A stretch of DNA of 36,529 nt from a virus. Made by a program: the position numbers and the translations under genes. Location of the stretch: IMG/VR virus record IMGVR_UViG_3300025818_000007, positions 1 to 36,529 of that record; one strand, 5' to 3'. Below are positions 2,588 through 36,529 of the stretch, one piece after another (the first letter of the stretch is position 1; every line of letters starts with the position of its first letter). The notes under the pieces were generated by a model, which had not been told where the DNA came from, did not search any database, and worked only from the letters and a program-made list of their open reading frames with translations.

Positions 2588-3042
2588 GCCAAGGCATATT
2601 TTCAGCGCTGGAATACCTAGAGACTCAGCTCGAGGCGACCTCACCCAAGAGTGATGTTTATCATGGCTTCGTCGCTCACGCTCGAGCTGATGGGATGGTT
2701 GTCCCATTAGAGGAGCGCTTCAACTCCAACCGATACTTTCAGCTTGATATAGCTGAGATGCCGAGCGATGACGGGGCGGCAGGGCTGAGCGGTAGACGTC
2801 GCGCGCTCATCGACCTCAGGGTGAGGTATGATATCCCTCATGATGTGGCCTATCTTCAGCGTCTCATGGCTGAGGATGCCGAGAGTCTACTAGTCACCCT
2901 CAAAGGGCCTAACTATTCACTCGTCACAACTGGGATCGTGTCAGTCATTCCTGAGACACCCATCTATGAGCCCTTAAACCTCGGTGAGCAGGGTGTCTTC
3001 ATCCTGACCATCCCCTTTACCTTGCTTTATTTGGAGGCATAA
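2584..3042 (+). CDS. Tail terminator-like protein
   Basis: The 152-residue protein lies between the tail-completion and tail-tube genes, the standard site of the tail terminator, which caps the tube and fixes its length. It has the expected alpha/beta look: an N-terminal helix (GIFSALEYLETQLEA), a central basic strand (RRRALIDLRVRYDI), a second helix (DVAYLQRLMAEDAESLLVTL) and a final strand pair (GVFILTIPFTLLYLEA). No catalytic motif is visible. It overlaps the previous gene by four bases and is separated from the tube gene by one. Identity is by synteny and size (families run about 130-160 residues). Confidence 0.6.
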   Translation: MSQGIFSALEYLETQLEATSPKSDVYHGFVAHARADGMVVPLEERFNSNRYFQLDIAEMPSDDGAAGLSGRRRALIDLRVRYDIPHDVAYLQRLMAEDAESLLVTLKGPNYSLVTTGIVSVIPETPIYEPLNLGEQGVFILTIPFTLLYLEA

Positions 3043-3043
3043 C

Positions 3044-4333
3044 ATGGCGGTAACACATCGCTCTTTGTCCATCGCTGTCGAGAGCTTATTTGGCTCAATC
3101 AGCCCTTCTACCGGTCTACCTGATAACTCAGGGCTCACCTATGTTTCTATCCCTTGTGAGCGCGACCCCATCATCATCCCTGGTGAGCCCGTGGTCAGTG
3201 AGCGTAATGATGCTCGTGATGGTAACTACATGCTACCTCCTGAGCCTGATACAGTTTGGTCAGGTGGCTCACGAGTTCGCCGTCGAACCGGCCAAGTTGT
3301 CTGTCGAGTTGACCTCACCACGATTGGATCAGCTGCGGATACCTACGCCGCCAACTACCTCGGCTATCTCCTCGGCGCGGGTATGAAGACCAAGCTTCCA
3401 TCAGTCGTCAGTGACGCCTCATTGACGGCGGTGGACGCCAACACATACACACCAGGGAGCGCACCGGCTGAGGCTGATATTGGAACGCTCGTGAGCACCT
3501 CTATCAGTGGCCGCGCTGAGTATTCAGCGATCACTGACAACGCCGACGCTTCATCAGATGTCACCATCTCACCTGCTTTCTCATCCAGCTCTTACACTGC
3601 GGTGAGAGGTCTACAAACGTGGTACATCCCTGGGCGCACTGCGACAGGTGACAGAGAGCACTCACTATCATTCCGCGTCGATGGGGTGAACTTCCGCTCT
3701 TATGCTTATGGCTGCGTATTGGAGAGCATGAGCATCAGTCTTGATAATGGACGCCTCATGGCTGACTTCACCTATCAGGCGGCGCTCATTCAGGATGATC
3801 ACGGCTCAGCGGTTGGACCTATCGAGCCAACTTACAACACCGGCGCGCCGGCCTTCTTCCGTGGTGCTTATGTGGTCGCCTCATCGACCTCACCTACCTC
3901 ACTCACCAACGCTTCAACAGGTGACACCTTGGGACGCTTGGCGCTCGATGCTGAAGATTTCAGTTTGACGCTCACCAATACGCTCACACCTATGGGTCAC
4001 TCTAATAGCATCATCGCTATGAGTGACATGGAGATCAGTGACGTTGTGGTTGAGCTATCTCTGACTCTCAGCTCAGTTAACACCACCATCAGCAGCGACT
4101 TCTTCAACCGCACTGTGAGGCAGGTCATTGTAGGAACTGGCCCTCAGGGTGATGGGCTCGGTTGCGCTCTCATGCTTCCAGCGGCTCAGCTCACAGTTGA
4201 CCCGAGCGCTTATGATGTGTCAGGTAATGAGATTGTTCGTCAGCAGTTGACCTATCAACAATCTCGCTTTGGCGGTGATGTGAGTGAGGCCAACGCTGGA
4301 AACTCACCCTTTAGATTAGGACTCGGCGTGTAA
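3044..4333 (+). CDS. Major tail tube protein
   Basis: The 429-residue, beta-rich, Thr/Ser-rich protein sits directly before the frameshifted chaperone pair, the usual site of the tail tube subunit. It is longer than the 200-300 residues common in the family. Features include IPCERDPIIIPGEPVVSERN near the N terminus, GREHSLSFRVDG-like strands in the middle (DREHSLSFRVDGVNF) and VVELSLTLSSVNTTISSDFF later, consistent with one tube domain plus insertions exposed on the tail surface. The start ATG 3044 follows a TTTGGAGGC site at 3030-3038. Function is inferred from order and composition. Confidence 0.65.
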   Translation: MAVTHRSLSIAVESLFGSISPSTGLPDNSGLTYVSIPCERDPIIIPGEPVVSERNDARDGNYMLPPEPDTVWSGGSRVRRRTGQVVCRVDLTTIGSAADTYAANYLGYLLGAGMKTKLPSVVSDASLTAVDANTYTPGSAPAEADIGTLVSTSISGRAEYSAITDNADASSDVTISPAFSSSSYTAVRGLQTWYIPGRTATGDREHSLSFRVDGVNFRSYAYGCVLESMSISLDNGRLMADFTYQAALIQDDHGSAVGPIEPTYNTGAPAFFRGAYVVASSTSPTSLTNASTGDTLGRLALDAEDFSLTLTNTLTPMGHSNSIIAMSDMEISDVVVELSLTLSSVNTTISSDFFNRTVRQVIVGTGPQGDGLGCALMLPAAQLTVDPSAYDVSGNEIVRQQLTYQQSRFGGDVSEANAGNSPFRLGLGV

Positions 4334-25920: not shown

Positions 25921-27897
25921 ATGAAATACACAACACTACCCATGATTGACAACAATCCAACCGCTTCTTTGGATCGCTCGTATCGAAACATGCACCCTCT
26001 CCAATACTGCCGAGAGATCTACTTCAACGCAGTTGAGGCGGGGGCCACCTTCGTGAGAGTTCGACCAGTCAATGGCATCAAGATGGCTTGGTGCGATGAT
26101 GGTCATGGGATGAACCCACAAGACCTTCTCAGGTTGATCAATGGCCGCAACTCCTCATCTAAGTCAGTCGAGGGTCATCATGGGAACTTTGGTATTGGCC
26201 TGAAAGACTCAGCGCTAACCCCCAATCCTTATGGCTTGGTCATCGTATCTAAGACAGCAGAGAAGCCGATGGGCGGCATGATCTGGCTACATCAGAGAGA
26301 TGGTGTGTCAGGCGCTCAGGTTCTCATCTCTGAAGAGATGCGCCGAGACTTCTGCTCAACTCCTGACCATGCTGATGACTTCGCCGCTGAGTATCTGCAG
26401 GATCTCTACTCAGTTGATTTTGAGTGGGTCCAGAATGAGTTTGGCCATGAGAGCTTCACGATTGATGGCGTTGATTGGATGCACCTCTTCAAGAAGTGCA
26501 GCGCCAACACCATCGTCGTCTTGATGGGTGAGTATGCAAACTCGGTGACTTTTGACACTGATGCTGCGAAGTTTCATAAATTCTTTGGAATGAAGTTGTC
26601 TCATATGCCTATCCGCATGTTGATACCTACTGTTAGTAATGATCGAGAGGCTCAGATAAAGTGGCAAAAAGTTAACACCTTATCTGAGTTGAGTTGTCCA
26701 AGCTTCAATCAGGAGTTCAAAGGCTTTAAGATCACAACGTATTTGAAACCGAAGACTTCAAAAAAAAATAGCAGAGATGCTGGTATCATGGATGGTAAAC
26801 GTTCTTTCATCAGCGGTATCAAATACAAAAATGAGATATTTGATTACACTGATACAAACGCAATGGCCAAACATTGGGGGCTATACTATGCTGAGGTGTA
26901 CAAGCGAGTGATCATCATGGTGGAGCCACCACTGATGGATGAAGATACAGGGATTGGATGCTATCCTGACAGCGAGCGTCAAAACCTTTTATACTCTGAT
27001 CCTCGCCTTAACATTATAAAGGCAAAAATCGAAGTAGTGCTTAATGAGGTTAAAGATTGGTATATCAACAATATGCCTGAGGAGCTGCGCCAGCTAATCA
27101 ATACAGAAGTCCAAAAGACATTAGAGCATGTCGAGAAATCAAAAAAGATCTCACAGTTCAGAAAGTTCTTTAAGGCTCCAAAGGTTGAGCGAGCTTCTCA
27201 GATTAATGTCTACGGTGACTTGTATATTTTGAACGAGTCAGGCAGTGACAACGCCACAGAAGGTTCAATCATCGATGATCTTTTCAAGCGACGTAATAAC
27301 CGTTTGAACCCACCACAACCATCAGCCAAAAAGGACAAGTCAGAAGCAGGTAATCCACAGAATAAGAGTGGTAAAAAAGGCGGGGATACTGCGGCGAATC
27401 GTCATGATGAAAGACCAAGCCCTAAAGATGCCTCTGTTGTCTTCGTCAATCCTCAAACTGAAGCTTGGCCAACTTATGAGTCCTTGGCTCAGTCTGAGAG
27501 AGGTGGCCTGTTCCCCTTTGTATATACCGGTATTCGGCGCGGTGATAATGTCAATGTGATCTATGTCAACACAGATTCATCAATCATCACAGCTCTTATC
27601 AGATCGGCGCTCGGTTGGGTCAACAAACGTGGTTCAGCCAAAATGGACATGTCAGAGTTGGAAGTCCTTGAGGCTCTTGTTAAGCCGTTCATCAGAGATT
27701 TTATGCCGGTGTCCCTGGCTCATCTAAACGGCGACAAAGACAAGATTAAGCTCGGTATCACCGTAACAGATCCGGTCGCCATCTATGCTATGTTTCATGG
27801 TACATGGCAGATTCACATGAATCTTCATGAGTATTATGAAGCGCACCGTAACCGTGTTTTATCTCCATCTGCTGAGGAAGATAATGAAAGAAACTAG
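25921..27897 (+). CDS. GHKL-type ATPase (Hsp90/MutL/MORC-like N-terminal domain), unknown role
   Basis: The 658-residue protein has the three nucleotide-binding motifs of the GHKL fold: the N box REIYFNAVEAGAT (Glu32 as general base, Asn36 for Mg2+), the G1 box CDDGHGM (Asp59, Gly61, Gly63), and the G2 box GNFGIGLKDSA (88-98). The spacing and the VEAGAT/DDGHGM wording are closest to MutL and MORC ATPases, not histidine kinases. Residues 200-400 may be the transducer domain, and about 445-510 is a Lys/Pro/Ser-rich linker (PPQPSAKKDKSEAGNPQNKS) before a C-terminal domain of about 150 residues I do not recognise. It may act as a DNA clamp or conformational switch in replication, repair or counter-defence. 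DNA from about 26540 to 27350 is visibly richer in A+T than the neighbours, hinting at separate origin. Confidence 0.82.
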   Translation: MKYTTLPMIDNNPTASLDRSYRNMHPLQYCREIYFNAVEAGATFVRVRPVNGIKMAWCDDGHGMNPQDLLRLINGRNSSSKSVEGHHGNFGIGLKDSALTPNPYGLVIVSKTAEKPMGGMIWLHQRDGVSGAQVLISEEMRRDFCSTPDHADDFAAEYLQDLYSVDFEWVQNEFGHESFTIDGVDWMHLFKKCSANTIVVLMGEYANSVTFDTDAAKFHKFFGMKLSHMPIRMLIPTVSNDREAQIKWQKVNTLSELSCPSFNQEFKGFKITTYLKPKTSKKNSRDAGIMDGKRSFISGIKYKNEIFDYTDTNAMAKHWGLYYAEVYKRVIIMVEPPLMDEDTGIGCYPDSERQNLLYSDPRLNIIKAKIEVVLNEVKDWYINNMPEELRQLINTEVQKTLEHVEKSKKISQFRKFFKAPKVERASQINVYGDLYILNESGSDNATEGSIIDDLFKRRNNRLNPPQPSAKKDKSEAGNPQNKSGKKGGDTAANRHDERPSPKDASVVFVNPQTEAWPTYESLAQSERGGLFPFVYTGIRRGDNVNVIYVNTDSSIITALIRSALGWVNKRGSAKMDMSELEVLEALVKPFIRDFMPVSLAHLNGDKDKIKLGITVTDPVAIYAMFHGTWQIHMNLHEYYEAHRNRVLSPSAEEDNERN

Positions 27898-28508: not shown

Positions 28509-28749
28509 GATCTACCTCAAGCGCTCGTGGTCGCGCTATGCCTCTCATGAGCGTGAGGATTATCAGATTCATGGATGGCATCGGCTCATCTGCTGTGAAG
28601 ACCTCAGTGAGCCTCATCTGACCATCTACCACGATAGCCTTGATGTGGTGGTGGGTGCTAAGGTGAGCGTGATTAAGGTGGGTCAAGATAAGGTCAGGAT
28701 CGAGGAGAGGTGGCGCGTGACCGACAGAGGGCTAAAGTTGGATGATTAG
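28474..28749 (+). CDS. Unknown protein between terS and terL, 91 residues
   Basis: This product has a charged N terminus (MTQQTEKKQTTRIYLKRSW) and a beta-rich remainder (HLTIYHDSLDVVVGAKVSVI; DKVRIEERWRVTDRGLKLDD). No family is recognised. It overlaps terS by 35 bases and terL by eight, so all three are probably translated together, which suggests an accessory packaging or packaging-regulating protein. A separate frame on the opposite strand here is a shadow. Confidence 0.5.
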   Translation: MTQQTEKKQTTRIYLKRSWSRYASHEREDYQIHGWHRLICCEDLSEPHLTIYHDSLDVVVGAKVSVIKVGQDKVRIEERWRVTDRGLKLDD

Positions 28750-30106
28750 GCTCAACGAGCTCCAGCATGGGATCATCTCTCGTATCGCTCGCAGTGAGAG
28801 AATCATAGCGGCGCGGTGTGGGTGGGGATCAGGTAAGACCTCGGCGCTTGTCTTCGCTCTGCTGTTCATCTCTCGATTTAGACCTGGCACCTCTAGCCTT
28901 CTCGTCACCGACACGAACCCACGCTATAACTCAGTATTGATGCCTGAGATGGAGAAGTGGCTGAGTAAGCTGGGGTGGACTTACAACCACACTCTAAGAC
29001 AGTGGTCAGCGCCTAATGGCTCAACTGTGTGGTGTCGCTCGTATTATAGGCCAGGGACGAGAGACGCCACCCATAACCCGCTCGAGGGGCTCAACATCAC
29101 CTCGGGTGTCTGCCTCATCGATGAGTGTCAGACGCTCTCAGCAGAGGTGGCTCATAAGGCGATGGGTCGATTGAGAGCGGGGCCGAGCCCCATCATGATC
29201 CTTGTGGGTCTGCCGGTGTCCGGCGCTTGGTGGTGTCAGCTAGCAGAGGAGGCGAGCTGTCAACCTCTCCTGTTTACCTCATACGTGAACGCAGCCAACC
29301 TCTCCTCGGAATGGTTCGAGGCCACTAAGCTTCTGCCTCAGGCTGAGCGTGAGGCTATGGTGATGAACAAGCCAAGGCCACCCTCAGGGCTCATCTATTC
29401 TGAGTTCGATGAGTCGCGCCACGTTATCAGCGGTTGGAAGTATAAGCCGACCATGAGTGGGCGTATCGCCATTGACTGGGGATTCAGGAAACCATCGGTG
29501 TTGATTATCGTGCATGATGATGAACTTGGCGCCGATGTGATCTGCGCTGAGATCAACCCACAAGAGGTGACCACCTCTCAACTAGCCACCCTCATCTTAG
29601 CTGTGGCGTGGCCGCGCTCGTTGAGGAGCTCCGCACCAGCTGAGAGGATATGGCTAGATAATGGGGTAGCTGACAAGGCGGGGCGAGCGCGAAATGATCA
29701 GACGGGGCGCTCAGCCTTCCGAGCAATGAGAGGGAATCCACCTCATGGGCTCGGCTTACCTCTGAGGTCGAACACTGACCCCATCAGGACAGATATCTTA
29801 AATGGGATTCAGCGATTGAAGAGGGCCTTTGCTCGAGGTCAATATCTGATCACTCGTGAAGTGTGGGATGCAGGCGAGCGCGCTCTTGGGAACTCAATCA
29901 GGAAGGCGATCATGAGCTATGGATGGGACAACAAAGAGCAGCCAAAGAAGGATGGGAGAGAGGACCCTCTTGACGCCTTGAGATATGACTGCATAACGTG
30001 GAACTGGTCTGACTCGCTAGTCGATCAGCGCAATTATCAACCACGAGCGACAGCCCCCAAGGACCGCCGAGTCAAGGTAGGCGGCGCTAAGACAAGAGGC
30101 TTCTAA
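28742..30106 (+). CDS. terL: Terminase large subunit
   Basis: The 454-residue packaging motor cuts DNA and pumps it into the capsid. Residues 27-34 are the Walker A (GWGSGKTS), residues 123-128 the Walker B with catalytic Glu (VCLIDE). The nuclease domain shows RIAIDWGFRKPSVLII (Asp near residue 246) and the closing motif REDPLDALRYDCITW near residue 415. Length is typical. A Lys/Arg-rich end (RRVKVGGAKTRGF) may reach the portal. Its stop overlaps the thyX ATG by one base. Packaging type (cos or headful) cannot be told from this sequence. Confidence 0.93.
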   Translation: MIRLNELQHGIISRIARSERIIAARCGWGSGKTSALVFALLFISRFRPGTSSLLVTDTNPRYNSVLMPEMEKWLSKLGWTYNHTLRQWSAPNGSTVWCRSYYRPGTRDATHNPLEGLNITSGVCLIDECQTLSAEVAHKAMGRLRAGPSPIMILVGLPVSGAWWCQLAEEASCQPLLFTSYVNAANLSSEWFEATKLLPQAEREAMVMNKPRPPSGLIYSEFDESRHVISGWKYKPTMSGRIAIDWGFRKPSVLIIVHDDELGADVICAEINPQEVTTSQLATLILAVAWPRSLRSSAPAERIWLDNGVADKAGRARNDQTGRSAFRAMRGNPPHGLGLPLRSNTDPIRTDILNGIQRLKRAFARGQYLITREVWDAGERALGNSIRKAIMSYGWDNKEQPKKDGREDPLDALRYDCITWNWSDSLVDQRNYQPRATAPKDRRVKVGGAKTRGF

Positions 30107-30789
30107 TGAAGATTTATGCAGATGATATCGGTGAGGTTCGGTACGTATCACACATGGGTCACGACTCAACGCCAGCTCACTCGGCGCGGGTGAGCTTCTA
30201 TGATGCGACCACTAGCAGCCGCCTACATGTGACAGCTCGTGATGTGTCGCTGATTAAATACCTCGCAAGGCATGGCCACACCTCACCCTTTGAGCACTGC
30301 AACGCTACCCTCAAAATCACCTGTCCTCTGTTCGTTAGATCTCAGATTATGCGCCATAGAACCTTCTCTTATAATGAGGTGTCGAGGCGTTACACATCTG
30401 AGAGGTTGCAGTTTTGGGTGCCCTCAGCGCTCAGAGGTCAGCACGAGAAAAGTCTACAGTGTTCATCTGAAGAGGTCGTTGAGGAATCCGAGCACTGGCT
30501 TGAGTGTTGGCGCAAGCACAGCGAGAACTGCCAGATGTTCTATGAGCTGATGATTGCTTCTGGTGTCGCTCGAGAGCAAGCGCGCGCCATCCTGCCTCAG
30601 TCGCTCTACACCCACTTCTGGATGAGCGGAAACCTTAACAACTGGGCTCGATTCCTGAGGCTACGCTTAGACCCTCACAGTCAACCTGAGACGAGAGCTG
30701 TGGCTGTGGCAGCTCGTGATATACTCATGAAGCATTTCCCTGTTTCGTTGGGCGCTCTGCTCGGTGACTTTGAGGAGGTAGACCATTGA
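30106..30789 (+). CDS. thyX: Flavin-dependent thymidylate synthase
   Basis: The 227-residue enzyme makes dTMP from dUMP using FAD, NADPH and methylene-tetrahydrofolate. The ThyX signature RHRxxSxNExSxRY is intact (residues 83-96, RHRTFSYNEVSRRY). Upstream SPFEHCNATLKITCPLFVRS and downstream SGVAREQARAILPQSLYTHF followed by NNWARFLRLRL are also family blocks, including the Arg-rich substrate-binding region. It probably raises thymidine supply for phage DNA. It starts one base into the terL stop and its own stop overlaps the next ATG, so it is expressed with the packaging genes, which is an uncommon place for a nucleotide-metabolism gene. Confidence 0.95.
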   Translation: MKIYADDIGEVRYVSHMGHDSTPAHSARVSFYDATTSSRLHVTARDVSLIKYLARHGHTSPFEHCNATLKITCPLFVRSQIMRHRTFSYNEVSRRYTSERLQFWVPSALRGQHEKSLQCSSEEVVEESEHWLECWRKHSENCQMFYELMIASGVAREQARAILPQSLYTHFWMSGNLNNWARFLRLRLDPHSQPETRAVAVAARDILMKHFPVSLGALLGDFEEVDH

Positions 30790-30950
30790 TGTATGATGAC
30801 GAAGACGAAACAATCTGCGGCAGTTGTGGACTGGTTCAATGTATTTGTGACATCGAATATGAACATGACTGTGAGAGCGAAGACTGCGACTGTGGCGTTG
30901 ATTGTTCATGTTGCATCAATGAACGATGTAACTGTCAGTGTGGAGAGTGA
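30789..30950 (+). CDS. Cys-rich acidic microprotein (metallothionein-like composition)
   Basis: A 53-residue frame starts at ATG 30789, sharing its A with the thyX stop (TGATG), and ends TGA 30948-30950, three bases before the cyclase ATG. Thirteen of 53 residues are Cys, at 10, 13, 18, 20, 28, 33, 35, 39, 41, 42, 47, 49 and 51, giving CxxC, CxC and CC motifs; most other residues are acidic (MYDDEDETICGSCG at the start). CxC and CC spacing with no aromatic core is typical of metallothioneins; the CxxC-start could also be a small zinc-ribbon-like peptide. Soft-metal binding is thus likely. Stop-start coupling and lack of a competing gene support reality. Frames on the opposite strand here are shadows. 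Confidence 0.68.
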   Translation: MYDDEDETICGSCGLVQCICDIEYEHDCESEDCDCGVDCSCCINERCNCQCGE

Positions 30951-30953
30951 GCC

Positions 30954-31733
30954 ATGAAGATCAGAGAGAGGAGGCTTGCCATAGTCCTCCTCGATCTCAT
31001 CGGCTCAACTCAGTTCGTGCAGAAGGTGGGCGCTGTCAAGGCGGCGCGGTGGCTTCAGTATCATGATCGCCTCACTCGCTCTCTCATGTATCGCTTCTCA
31101 GGCAGAGAGATAGATAGGTCTGATGGATTTCTGCTGAGCTTCGAGGAACCTATCAACGCGGTAAACTTTGCGCTTCATTATCAGCTCTCCATACCACCAC
31201 GAACCCGCCTCAATACTCGCGTGGGTGTGCATGTCGGCTGTATCGCTGAGGTAACACAGCATGAGCTTGATGTGATGGTGGGTGCTAAGCCTGTGGAACT
31301 GGAAGGCATCGCCAAGAATATCGCGGCGCGCACTATGAGCGTTTGTGGCCCTGGTCAGGTGCTACTCACAGAGGAGGCGTTCAAGGAGATTCGAGGCCAT
31401 ACAAACAGCATGACACCCAAGGGGACAAGATATGTCATGGTTGGCCTCTATCGATTCAAGGGTGTTAAAGAGCCTCAGGTCCTCTATGCTGTCGGCTCAC
31501 GCATCGAAGCCCTCCAACCACCTCCGAGCAGTGAGAAGGCCAAGAGACTTGGAGGGCCTAAGCGGGTGAGGTCGCGCGCTCGAGATCGCAAGGTGAAAGA
31601 GTGGTTGAGCTGGGCGCTGCCTAGATGGGCCTTCATCAATATCATTTACATCGTCTGCCTGATGTGGCCTTGGTTGACTCACCAGCTCCCCATCATCTTA
31701 GAGATAGTGAGGTTCATCTATGGAGAAGAGTAA
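30954..31733 (+). CDS. Class III nucleotide cyclase with C-terminal membrane anchor
   Basis: The 259-residue protein has a complete class III cyclase homology domain (residues about 6-190): LAIVLLDLIGSTQF with metal Asp14, RSDGFLLSFEEP with second metal Asp57, RVGVHVGCIAEV, and NIAARTMSVCGPGQVLLTEE with transition-state Asn122 and Arg126, then YRFKGVKEPQVLYAVG. The positions that select purine substrates look altered: where adenylyl and guanylyl cyclases have Lys (or Glu) there is Ile53/Asp54, and the partner Asp is Glu115. A basic linker (KAKRLGGPKRVRSRARDRKV) precedes a membrane segment near residues 225-245. It should make a 3',5'-cyclic nucleotide (base not known) at the membrane. The next gene overlaps by 14 bases. 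Phage genomes rarely carry this enzyme, so a signalling or defence role is possible. Confidence 0.85.
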   Translation: MKIRERRLAIVLLDLIGSTQFVQKVGAVKAARWLQYHDRLTRSLMYRFSGREIDRSDGFLLSFEEPINAVNFALHYQLSIPPRTRLNTRVGVHVGCIAEVTQHELDVMVGAKPVELEGIAKNIAARTMSVCGPGQVLLTEEAFKEIRGHTNSMTPKGTRYVMVGLYRFKGVKEPQVLYAVGSRIEALQPPPSSEKAKRLGGPKRVRSRARDRKVKEWLSWALPRWAFINIIYIVCLMWPWLTHQLPIILEIVRFIYGEE

Positions 31734-32196
31734 AAGTGAGAGAGAGGTGACGAGCGAGATTAAAGCGCGGCGCGGGTGGTGGTTCAGCGTCTTCTTCATG
31801 ATGCTCGTCGTCTTCCTGATCCTCTTCTTGACCTATGTTGAGATTGTCGAAAAAAACCGTGATGTGTTGGTGGGGATCTTGGGGATGATAACGGGGTCAA
31901 TCTCCTCAATGATGGCTATCGCCTCAGGTCGCGACCCATCAGAGGTGGAAGAACTAAAAGATAAATTATCTTCAGCCAACGCTGATAGAGAAGCGCTCAT
32001 CGCTCGCCTCAGAGATGCGCAGATTCAGATGCAACTATTAAGAGAGCAGATACATGAGCTGCAGACGGCAGTGATCGATAAGCTCTCTATCTTCGCCGGT
32101 GATCACCCCATCAAAACCAAAGATGAAAACTCGGTCATCCTTCATCCATCGGTGGAAGAGTGGCTCCCTCACAGTGGGCTAGACAAACAAAAGTAA
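31720..32196 (+). CDS. Two-TM coiled-coil protein paired with the cyclase
   Basis: The 158-residue protein has a short basic cytoplasmic start, TM1 at about residues 20-42 (GWWFSVFFMMLVVFLILFLT), a short turn, TM2 at about 49-68 (VLVGILGMITGSISSMMAIA), and then a coiled coil (about 73-125, EVEELKDKLSSANADREALI) and a soluble tail. It overlaps the cyclase by 14 bases, so the two are co-translated. A membrane protein beside a cyclase fits a cyclic-nucleotide effector of the Pycsar TM type, but I see no cyclic-nucleotide-binding domain, so it may instead be a holin-like pore or a partner that holds the cyclase. Function open. Confidence 0.65.
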   Translation: MEKSKSEREVTSEIKARRGWWFSVFFMMLVVFLILFLTYVEIVEKNRDVLVGILGMITGSISSMMAIASGRDPSEVEELKDKLSSANADREALIARLRDAQIQMQLLREQIHELQTAVIDKLSIFAGDHPIKTKDENSVILHPSVEEWLPHSGLDKQK

Positions 32197-32271: not shown

Positions 32272-33684
32272 ATGCACGATCACACTGAAGAGCGTGAGAC
32301 TCGACATTTTAGAGCGCTCTCACCTCGGTTTAGAACGCGAGGCATCACTGGTACTCAGATCAGTGGTGGGGTGATCACGGGCAAGGAACAGAACGCTCAA
32401 CTCACCGGCCTCAACTGGGTGCAAGAGGCTGAGGAGATGTTGAGAACTGACCCCATTGTCAGGCGCTCATGGCATATGCTCAGGCAGACTCTTCTCTCTG
32501 CCGCTTGGCGATTCGAGCCAGGGATTAAAGATGATCCTATCGCTGAGGAGCTCGCCCGATTCGCTAATGAGGCTTGGGGCTTCGATGGATACTCAGGTCA
32601 GATGTCGATCAGTTGGGAAGATCAACTTGCTTATCTCTTTGAGTTCGTTCCTTTGGGTTATCGATACGCTGAAGAGATCTACAAGGTAGGCCCTGACTCA
32701 AAAGGTGAGGTCAAGGTCTGGCTATCTCATTACGCCGACCGCGAGCCAAGCGCTCATCAGAAGTGGCTGAGTCGAGACGCTCAGCAGCTCGACGGGGTGA
32801 TTCAGAACACAGTAGGCATCACCTACACTCCTGAGCCCATCCCTGCCAACAAGCTACTCTTGCTCACCCTCAACAAGACCGGTTCAAACTTTGAGGGCGT
32901 CGGGATGCTTCGTCCTGTTTGGTGGTGGTGGCGTACGAAACAGAGGGTGGCTAACCTCATGTGCGTTGGCCTCGATAGATGGGCCGTTCCATCTCCAAAG
33001 GTTGTGGTGGATCGCTCTCAGGCTGAAGCGCTCGGTTTATCTGATGGTGACATTGACGCGATGATTGATGATGCAGAAGCTCAAGCAAGAGCTTTCATCT
33101 CAGCAGAGCAGAGCTATCTAGTAGAGAACGCCGCTGTTAAGTTCGACACCTACGCAGCCACTCCGAATCTCTACGCTGATGGTCCCATCAATATCATCAC
33201 TAAGTGTGATAGCCAAATAGCAGCCGCCTTCCTCACTCAGTTTGCCGACCTCGGGAACACCGAGACAGGAGCGCGCTCAGTTGGTGAGATTCATCTCTCT
33301 GTCTTCAGACGAGCTGCAATCAACCTTTGCGATCTAGTCGCTTCAGCTGTAAGTGGAGTGGATCGCCGAGGCGCTGGCACTATAGGCCGCCTCATTAGAT
33401 GGAACTATGGCGCGGTTGATCCTTCTAAGCTACCTCGCCTCACCCACACCGGCCTCGATACTGATGACTTGGCTGAGTCACTCGGCATGTTGCCAGGTCT
33501 AGTCCAAGCAGGGTTACTCACTCCTGATGATGAGCTCGAGCGAGCAATCAGGGAACGACTCGGCGCGGGTGTATTACCTGATGAAGCTGAGCGCTCACCC
33601 ATCTCAAGAGTCTCAGCTGTGGGTGGTGGTGGCTCAGTCTCAGCGCTCGCTGAGCAGCTCATCAGGAGGCGCCGAGATGGTTAA
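32272..33684 (+). CDS. Portal protein (Mu gp29/DUF935-like)
   Basis: The 470-residue protein forms the dodecameric DNA channel at the capsid vertex. It has the DUF935/Mu gp29 style: TDPIVRRSWHMLRQTLLSAA, WRFEPG, then LLLLTLNKTGSNFEGVGMLR followed by PVWWWWRTKQRVANLM, and a C-terminal ESLGMLPGLVQAGLLTPDDE. The pattern of KLLLLT..K.G..FEG.G.LRP..WWW..K is diagnostic. Its gene starts after the two-TM gene and leader element 2, so it could have its own promoter. It ends eight bases into the protease-scaffold gene. Confidence 0.88.
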   Translation: MHDHTEERETRHFRALSPRFRTRGITGTQISGGVITGKEQNAQLTGLNWVQEAEEMLRTDPIVRRSWHMLRQTLLSAAWRFEPGIKDDPIAEELARFANEAWGFDGYSGQMSISWEDQLAYLFEFVPLGYRYAEEIYKVGPDSKGEVKVWLSHYADREPSAHQKWLSRDAQQLDGVIQNTVGITYTPEPIPANKLLLLTLNKTGSNFEGVGMLRPVWWWWRTKQRVANLMCVGLDRWAVPSPKVVVDRSQAEALGLSDGDIDAMIDDAEAQARAFISAEQSYLVENAAVKFDTYAATPNLYADGPINIITKCDSQIAAAFLTQFADLGNTETGARSVGEIHLSVFRRAAINLCDLVASAVSGVDRRGAGTIGRLIRWNYGAVDPSKLPRLTHTGLDTDDLAESLGMLPGLVQAGLLTPDDELERAIRERLGAGVLPDEAERSPISRVSAVGGGGSVSALAEQLIRRRRDG

Positions 33685-35633: not shown

Positions 35634-36529
35634 ATGGCTAGTTCATACAGCAATCTGCATCCAGTCGACCAAATCCTATCTAACCTCGTCGTTGAGGCTG
35701 TCCCAAGTGATGATCAGTTGATCGCTGATAAGGTCTTTGAGAGCATCAAGGTTCCTGAGCGATCAGGCACCATCTTGCTTGAGGAGACTCGGAACTTCAT
35801 GGGCGCTGGCGCGGGTCTTGACCTCGAGCGCGCACCAGGGAGCTCACGCACCAACATCGGTGGATTCGACCGAAGCTCAACCACCTTCAAGGCGTTGATC
35901 TACGCGGCTCAAGACTCCATCGCTATGGAAGACATCTTTGACTCTCAGTATCCAGGGAGCGAAGAAGCACGCATCGCAAAGAAGGTTGCACGAGTGATGA
36001 AGCTCGCTAAAGAGAAGCGCGCCGCTGATCTTCTCTTCAGTACCTCGCTCTTTGCAGGCTATACCTCAGCGCCAGCTACTAAGTTTGACGCTACAGGCGC
36101 TGAGCCTCTCACCACCTTGCACAGCCTCAAGGATACCGTTTATCAAAACGCTCATGGGATCAACCCTGACACCATGATCTTAGGTCGCGACGTCTTCCGC
36201 GCTCTTGCTCGTAACCCTGAGGTTCGTGGCTATGTTGGAGACAGCTCTAGTGGGATTGCTTCAGGTAATCGCATCTTGGCAGATGAGGCGGTTCTCTCTG
36301 TACTTCGTGATGTGCTCGGTATCCCCAACATCATGGTAGGTGCTGCGCTTCAAGACACCGCTGTCCCTGGCGCGGCTAGCTCTGAGGCTTACATCTGGGA
36401 TCGTGAGACGATCTTCATGGGTATCTTGCGCGGCTCAGATGCAATCGTTCAAAAGAGCGGTAACGTCAAGGGGATGCCAACGGCGGCTCTTAACCTTGAG
36501 TTTGGTGGCATGATCGCGGGTCAGTATGA
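35634..36529 (+). CDS. Major capsid protein, N-terminal part (continues at 1-230)
   Basis: The frame is open to the window end and continues at base 128 after the terminal repeat, giving 332 residues. It starts MASSYSNLHPVDQILSNLVV, then has PERSGTILLEETRNFMGAGA, AARIAKK-like helix phrases (EEARIAKKVARVMKLAKEKR), and GINPDTMILGRDVFRALARN, IPNIMVGAALQDTAV and AYIWDRETIFMGILRG, all usual in HK97-fold capsid proteins of the Mu/lambda-E-like group (spine helix, P-domain, A-domain). Strong AAGGAG ribosome site, preceded by decoration gene, which fits high expression. The split at the window ends is an artefact of where the circle was cut. Confidence 0.9.
   Translation, partial: MASSYSNLHPVDQILSNLVVEAVPSDDQLIADKVFESIKVPERSGTILLEETRNFMGAGAGLDLERAPGSSRTNIGGFDRSSTTFKALIYAAQDSIAMEDIFDSQYPGSEEARIAKKVARVMKLAKEKRAADLLFSTSLFAGYTSAPATKFDATGAEPLTTLHSLKDTVYQNAHGINPDTMILGRDVFRALARNPEVRGYVGDSSSGIASGNRILADEAVLSVLRDVLGIPNIMVGAALQDTAVPGAASSEAYIWDRETIFMGILRGSDAIVQKSGNVKGMPTAALNLEFGGMIAGQY
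36403..36529. repeat. Right copy of 127-bp terminal direct repeat
   Basis: This copy is identical to 1-127. See the left copy for interpretation: the overlap shows that the contig closes into a 36,402-bp circle or comes from a circularly permuted population of linear molecules. Confidence 0.95.

Follow-up and report, generated by a model that had tools for sequence, protein, structure and literature searches.

A conserved pair of a putative class III nucleotidyl cyclase and a two-transmembrane protein is an accessory element of uncultured phages

What is a nucleotidyl cyclase gene doing between the terminase and portal genes of a phage? The question is raised by IMG/VR record IMGVR_UViG_3300025818_000007, a viral sequence of 36,529 bases that was analysed at its full length and is referred to here as the window. 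An exact direct terminal repeat of 127 bp is present at positions 1-127 and 36403-36529, which most probably makes the window a full-length genome of about 36.4 kb; the major capsid gene spans the genome ends. The gene order is terS, terL, thyX, a small Cys-rich open reading frame (ORF), the cyclase, a protein with two transmembrane segments (two-TM protein), a Mu-type portal, a Mu-I-type protease, a cement-like protein and the capsid (Table 1). The first-pass annotation, made from the sequence alone, had described a membrane-anchored class III cyclase whose gene overlaps that of a two-TM coiled-coil protein between terL and the portal gene. The overlap (14 nt) and the position were both confirmed, with thyX lying beside terL on the upstream side and the portal being of Mu type.

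Table 1. Coordinates of the cyclase, its partner and the neighbouring genes in the window.
Feature	Position in window	Strand	Evidence or remark
Terminase large subunit (terL)	28742..30106	+	phrog_5653, E 1.5e-5; upstream neighbour of the pair
ThyX thymidylate synthase	30106..30789	+	PF02511, E 2.3e-48; context gene
Putative class III nucleotidyl cyclase	30954..31733	+	ORF, 259 aa; conservation, fold
Layout of the cyclase			catalytic residues about 1-185; conserved basic linker 186-214; C-terminal membrane segment about 215-245
Codon of metal-binding Asp14	30993..30995	+	sequence; Asp in 140 of 141 phage cyclases, a single gap in the remaining one
Signature REIDRSDGF, residues 51-59, with metal-binding Asp57 and the shortened base-recognition hairpin	31104..31130	+	sequence
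Segment ELEGIAKNIAAR, residues 115-126, with Glu115 and transition-state Asn122/Arg126	31296..31331	+	conservation
Two-TM coiled-coil partner	31720..32196	+	ORF, 158 aa; hydropathy, conservation, low-confidence model
Mu-type portal protein	32272..33684	+	PF06074, E 6.5e-26; downstream neighbour of the pair

The Cys-rich ORF directly before the cyclase (54 aa, TTG start, window 30786-30950, + strand) is present in many close relatives and may bind metal. The early region encodes a GHKL-type ATPase of 658 aa (window 25921-27897, + strand; HATPase_c_3, E 3.6e-6), which also matched a sacsin-like ATP-binding domain (E 7.5e-4) under the cut-off of that family. A PHROG search with 30 ORFs of the window gave no match to a lysis family, many ORFs having no match of any kind.

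The cyclase domain proved complete, as the first-pass annotation had proposed: the class III metal-binding residues (Asp14 and Asp57) and transition-state residues (Asn122 and Arg126) are all there. Their conservation was assessed in 141 distinct phage proteins, 36-97% identical to that of the window, a set from which incomplete proteins, the window itself (L043) and the cellular proteins L151-L158 were left out. Eight positions were invariant in all 141 (D54, S56, D57, G58, K112, K121, N122 and R126), and E115 was present in 136, with Asn in three and Ser in two of the remainder. The conservation of the catalytic set is far beyond chance. Both genes of the pair are under strong purifying selection, with dN/dS values, relative to three close relatives of the window, of 0.045-0.066 for the cyclase and 0.029-0.065 for the partner. 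In one locus (L039, 4020-4801), a frameshift splits the cyclase into two frames, which may be a natural break or a sequencing or assembly error.

The AlphaFold2 model of the cyclase had a pLDDT of 90.8. Among solved structures it was matched best by Rv1900c, with a Z of 24.2, 25% identity and an rmsd of 1.7 across 170 residues; the Z for Ma1120 was about 23, and both are adenylyl cyclases according to their entry titles. A profile search of the cyclase against solved structures similarly returned Rv1900c (E 1.1e-21). Against Pfam PF00211, the window cyclase alone scored 16.3 bits, the cut-off being 21.9, and 32 of the 35 members of cyclase alignment A3 matched the family with E values of 0.01 or lower. 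One of the cyclase comparisons left out identical proteins and five loci that were cut short or frameshifted. By its predicted fold and catalytic residues, the phage protein belongs to the class III nucleotidyl cyclases, and it would be active as an enzyme and would dimerise.

Its base selection is less easily placed. The annotation had noted altered purine-selecting positions, and this was borne out: these positions are occupied by Ile53/Asp54 and Glu115, and the purine-selecting Lys is absent. Neither of the canonical sets, Lys/Asp of adenylyl cyclases or Glu with Cys, Gly or a similar residue of guanylyl cyclases, was found; in their place are I53 or D54 and E115. Furthermore, the metal-binding Asp residues are 43 residues apart in the window cyclase and 44 apart in Rv1900c by alignment count, as they are in the available text on AnPycC (D62, D106) and EaPycC (D102, D146) (PMC11224242). 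The base-recognition hairpin is thus one residue short, and not merely substituted. Judged from the sequence, the base-selecting residues appear to match no characterised class that we could name. Ma1120 differs in using Lys101/Asp157 for the base and, by numbering, in having Ala164 at the place of Asn122, where a change from Ala to Asn lowered activity, according to the portion available of PMC4215837. Rv1900c (LipJ), while sharing the metal-binding Asp residues, has the longer hairpin and, in the alignment, a His at the Asn122 place. Because of these two proteins, Asn122 is no proof of activity either way.

The closest sequence family was TIGR04510 (NCBIfam, 'putative peptide modification system cyclase'), which matched cyclase residues 9-198 (E 1.9e-44, 152 bits). 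The match covers positions 7-204 of 814 and falls below the 400-bit cut-off for full-length members; on sequence grounds the phage cyclase is placed in the TIGR04510 branch. Common to both are the IDRSDG hairpin (IDRTDG in one cellular copy) and a GAKxxExxGxxK segment. The comparison used 12 cellular copies, namely three over the TIGR04510 cut-off (L370, L371 and L372) and nine from Rubrivivax/Rhizobacter metagenome-assembled genomes (MAGs); a fourth protein over the cut-off among 369 genomes (L373) could not be matched to the motif pattern used for reading. The place of Asn122 is taken by Pro in 10 and by Ala in two of these 12 copies and never by Asn, whereas the phage branch has Asn. This sets the phage branch apart and, given the His of Rv1900c and Ala164 of Ma1120, is no proof that the cellular proteins are dead. 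The cellular proteins are also much longer, at roughly 800-1000 residues, with an N-terminal cyclase domain followed by a P-loop (our own reading) and a TPR-like remainder, whereas the phage cyclase is a free-standing protein that has a membrane segment and is paired with a two-TM protein. One Rubrivivax MAG (genome G034, L151) contained nine TIGR04510-like cyclase-domain matches, and Pro occupies the Asn122 place in those of its copies that were read.

The C-terminal anchor claimed for the cyclase was found as a single stretch of moderate hydrophobicity, which peaks at 1.5 and covers the 19-residue windows with starts at 218-234. It is poorly conserved in sequence, with a mean entropy of 2.34 bits, compared with 0.95 bits in the catalytic part and 0.89 in the basic linker. 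The partner has TM1 at about residues 21-41, a Gly/Ser-rich TM2 at about 49-68 and a long helix at 73-125, predicted by sequence to be a coiled coil, followed by a short tail. Conservation across the whole pair is highest in TM2 (mean entropy 0.25 bits, with 11 of its 20 positions at 99% or more), and the mean entropy of the coiled coil is 0.71 bits. The structure model of the partner is of low confidence (mean pLDDT 65.8) and contains only helices and coil, with no beta-barrel. As the first-pass annotation had stated, no cyclic-nucleotide-binding domain was present in the 158-residue protein, either by Pfam profile search or in this low-confidence model. Among PHROGs, a weak match to the unnamed phrog_9990 (E 2.5e-4) was noted.

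To what extent the two genes travel together was apparent from related loci. IMG/VR stretches encoding relatives numbered 281-283 for the cyclase and 238-266 for the partner, with the best 80 kept per scan; as six of the seven viral-contig scans kept the best 80 of 238-502 relatives, the counts below describe near relatives of the queries. The fetched loci overlap, and distinct counts were made by cyclase DNA, excluding the window and the cellular L151-L158. Both genes were present in 247 overlapping loci, representing 146 distinct pairs. The nine loci with a cyclase alone each end 0-88 bases past it, and the two with a partner alone each begin 5-92 bases ahead of it; the cyclase and partner thus co-occur wherever the fetched sequence suffices. 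The two genes were adjacent in 141 of the 146 distinct pairs. Among the other five, the order was swapped in L266, with the partner first, and in four (L074, L241, L246 and L087) a gap of 0.75-1.5 kb containing ORFs lay between the cyclase and partner. On the L266 contig, a 96-kb phage contig, a PurB-like adenylosuccinate lyase (2675-3772; TIGR00928, E 3.6e-68, under cut-off) is encoded about 2 kb from the pair. This lyase may point to altered purine or 2-aminoadenine metabolism.

The pair was also found in other backbones, as would suit the coupled two-gene unit of the first-pass annotation. A window-type terL or portal was present in the locus for 120 of the 146 distinct pairs and neither for 26, some of these loci being short. 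Twenty-eight overlapping loci had more than 2.5 kb upstream and no window-type terL, and pairs lacking both window-type genes include contigs of 46 to 312 kb, the 312-kb contig (L206) being counted as viral from its membership of the viral collection. The pair lay beside another portal type on the opposite strand (L175), beside a primase and thyX (L160) or beside a helicase gene (L074), and the G+C content ranged from 0.29 to 0.56 in ten loci without the window-type backbone. Pairwise distances across 73 window-type loci correlated at r 0.87 within the pair and at 0.67-0.75 between the pair and terL or portal. The value for terL against portal was 0.81, not far below 0.87, and the test is therefore only suggestive.

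Sister phages without the pair were also found. Among the 80 nearest loci of a first portal search, 67 carried terL together with portal, and the pair was present in 66 of them; in a second search the pair was present in 59 of 61 such loci. The two sets overlap, and 13 and 19 loci of the 80, respectively, were not counted for want of terL or portal. The exceptions were two contigs, L308 (of which L309 is the same contig) and L346, in which terL and portal are kept and both pair genes are gone. Searches of the L308 (16.3 kb) and L346 (15.5 kb) records with the cyclase and partner gave no match, with the window and one relative matching as controls. Comparison of L308 with L306 (flanks 88% and 91% identical) indicated that one deletion of about 1.3 kb removed both genes, an assembly error being possible; the first nine cyclase codons remain at the deletion edge (L308, 6783-6809). 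In L346, a deaminase-like ORF (2146-2601; motifs read by eye) lies between thyX and portal at the place of the pair, which suggests that the space between terL and portal serves as a slot for cargo. The pair is accessory and not essential, in keeping with the cargo-like position ascribed to it.

We favour, with a probability of roughly 45%, the reading that the two phage genes are an accessory module that signals by cyclic nucleotides in the course of infection, in which the two-TM protein is the membrane partner of the cyclase and the product acts on host targets. The cyclase would be held at the inner membrane via its C-terminal segment, dimerise there and convert an NTP to a 3',5'-cyclic mononucleotide. 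Its obligate partner would be the two-TM protein, most likely placed beside the cyclase and controlling it, with its cytosolic coiled coil meeting the basic linker. The conservation of both the linker and the coiled coil supports such a complex; the variable membrane segment of the cyclase speaks against a specific contact between transmembrane segments. The proposed control is modelled on the membrane domains that control some cellular class III cyclases. In the accessible text on Rv1625c-type enzymes, a membrane part likewise governs the catalytic domain (PMC12505454), whereas in the phage the regulating membrane part would be encoded as a protein of its own. A partner that governs the cyclase is held likelier than one that reads its signal, as the partner shows no pocket domain and the phages gave no match to a receptor family. 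With no known receptor for cyclic nucleotides found among the phage proteins, the targets of the product are most likely proteins of the host, either a regulator resembling Crp or a defence under nucleotide control, and its action would benefit the phage. The conservation of TM2, as would be expected of a pore or oligomer, counts against this reading.

A bolder version, which we hold to be unlikely, is a phage-owned cyclic-mononucleotide system in which a tethered class III cyclase of new base selectivity would gate the two-TM protein directly, without a cyclic-nucleotide-binding domain, and which would be common to unrelated tailed phages, including jumbo-sized ones, serving to exclude competitors or disarm host signalling.

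The TM2 conservation fits well with a first alternative, in which the partner is a nucleotide-controlled membrane effector. The cyclase product, or contact with the cyclase, would open or restrain the two-TM protein, whose TM2 would oligomerise and damage the membrane, excluding co-infecting phages or punishing host counter-measures, as a phage-borne analogue of Pycsar or Panoptes. The logic of a cyclase with a transmembrane effector is established for Pycsar (PMC11224242) and Panoptes (PMC12657218, PMC12657230), as far as the available parts of these reports go. The partner matched the two-TM effector domain SLATT_fungal (E 5.5e-5); however, its 23.7 bits are under the gathering score of 26.5, and while SLATT was matched at E 0.01 or better by 21 of 24 partner proteins, the unrelated membrane family AbrB was matched by 22 of the 24. 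Matches of the partner to PADLOC models were likewise weak and scattered (E 0.28 for the window's partner, a best E of 0.0088 in one of 24 members, and the commonest model in three of 24). With no ligand-binding domain seen in the partner, whose low-confidence model is helix and coil, we regard this alternative as less probable than the favoured reading.

The first-pass annotation had raised kinship to Pycsar itself. There is a likeness in the two-gene set of a class III cyclase (PycC) and, in one type, a TM protein (available portion of PMC11224242); the phage partner differs in lacking a domain that binds cyclic mononucleotides, and the pair is carried by phages. The cNMP_binding family PF00027 was matched in none of 32 phage records, the control giving 10 of 14 genomes; a receptor of an unfamiliar type is conceivable. 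No model of PADLOC, whose library presumably includes PycC models, matched the cyclase with an E value of 1 or lower. The sequence match to the one uridylate cyclase chain listed was at E 0.13, and no PycC chain was among the best 50 structural matches listed, which excludes nothing. Leu12, two residues before the first metal-binding Asp, is present in 139 of the 141 phage cyclases, and the corresponding residue is F60 in AnPycC and F100 in EaPycC (PMC11224242); PycC clades differ among themselves. By sequence the nearest kin are TIGR04510 and Rv1900c, and the proposed kinship to Pycsar found no support. In Panoptes (OptS/mCpol and OptE/2TMbeta), a nucleotide-making enzyme likewise adjoins a two-TM protein; its enzyme is Cas10-like rather than class III and its effector is a two-TM beta-barrel (PMC12657218, PMC12657230, in their accessible text), which the low-confidence model of the phage partner does not predict. 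Either of the uses that the annotation had envisaged, keeping rival phages out or regulating the signalling of the host, is possible.

As a second alternative, the pair could be a decoy, the phage cyclic mononucleotide competing with or swamping a nucleotide-signalled defence of the host, with the two-TM protein merely localising or regulating the enzyme. Its accessory nature, its recurrence in other backbones and the two close sisters without it would suit such counter-defence, and decoy nucleotides are known, on the host side, in the available text on Panoptes (PMC12657218). The phage counter-measures named in the accessible portions of PMC9117128 and PMC12043709 destroy or bind the signal rather than make it; we consider a decoy improbable.

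Less probable still is a lysis or timing device, in which the two-TM protein would be class II holin-like, with its triggering set by the cyclase. Two TMs with both termini apparently cytoplasmic by charge (our own reading) and the position of the pair among packaging and capsid genes in the window would fit, but the partner has a long conserved C-terminal helix, other backbones place the pair by a primase and ThyX, by a helicase or on the opposite strand to the portal gene, and two sister phages do without both genes. A partner without the cyclase, as would be expected of a class II holin and as the annotation had named as grounds against its proposal in sister phages, was looked for and not seen in the fetched loci where the sequence suffices (the best 80 in most scans). 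Least probable of all is a packaging or structural role serving the terminase and portal, as the position suggests and as the window-type terL or portal in 120 of 146 pairs would allow, since the pair occurs in loci with neither gene (26 of 146, some short, including contigs of 46 to 312 kb) and L308 and L346 keep terL and portal without it; other backbones and natural absences make packaging and lysis alike unlikely.

Beyond the IMG/VR loci, neither the cyclase nor the partner matched any of 50,697 deposited phage records, and the cyclase had no PHROG match. A search for the pair elsewhere, which the annotation had called for, gave the 146 distinct pairs and no phage-type copy in 84,980 species genomes. 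That genome scan yielded eight relatives, 34-39% identical and every one of them from a Rubrivivax or Rhizobacter MAG, and relatives in plasmid records (39 records) were all under 60% identity. The partner profile matched none of 369 genomes of one class, in a scan without a positive control. In a viral structure library, the best matches of the cyclase were distant giant-virus and CHASE2-type phage cyclases. For the other backbones, the nearest annotated phages of the flanking genes pointed to mixed hosts, at under 60% identity. The psbA family was not matched in the 32 phage records, and no tyrosine integrase scored over the cut-off in them, with one weak match on the 312-kb contig. A temperate lifestyle is possible, tyrosine integrases being the only recombinase type examined and the window containing a repressor-like ORF with a weak match (phrog_1468, E 8.1e-4).

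Already known is an adenylate cyclase of another context, carried by uncultivated pelagiphages beside Curli (T8SS), histidine kinase and FecR genes (PMC9599517). It shares with the present family its carriage by uncultured marine phages, and differs in its context, namely the Curli genes and a two-TM partner that goes unmentioned in the available portion of that report. In PMC10746233 the term occurs only in the title of a cited work. No description of the present pair was found among the literature matches listed (titles and abstract starts of open-licence papers).

The presence of this pair in many uncultured phages suggests that viruses may use a form of chemical signalling inside the infected bacterium that has not been described, and its conservation across phages of differing backbone points to a signalling step of infection that is so far undescribed. 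The phage family also supplies relatives of the unstudied TIGR04510 cyclases that bear the classical catalytic set, and the pair, at 1.24 kb, is small enough for direct testing in bacteria.
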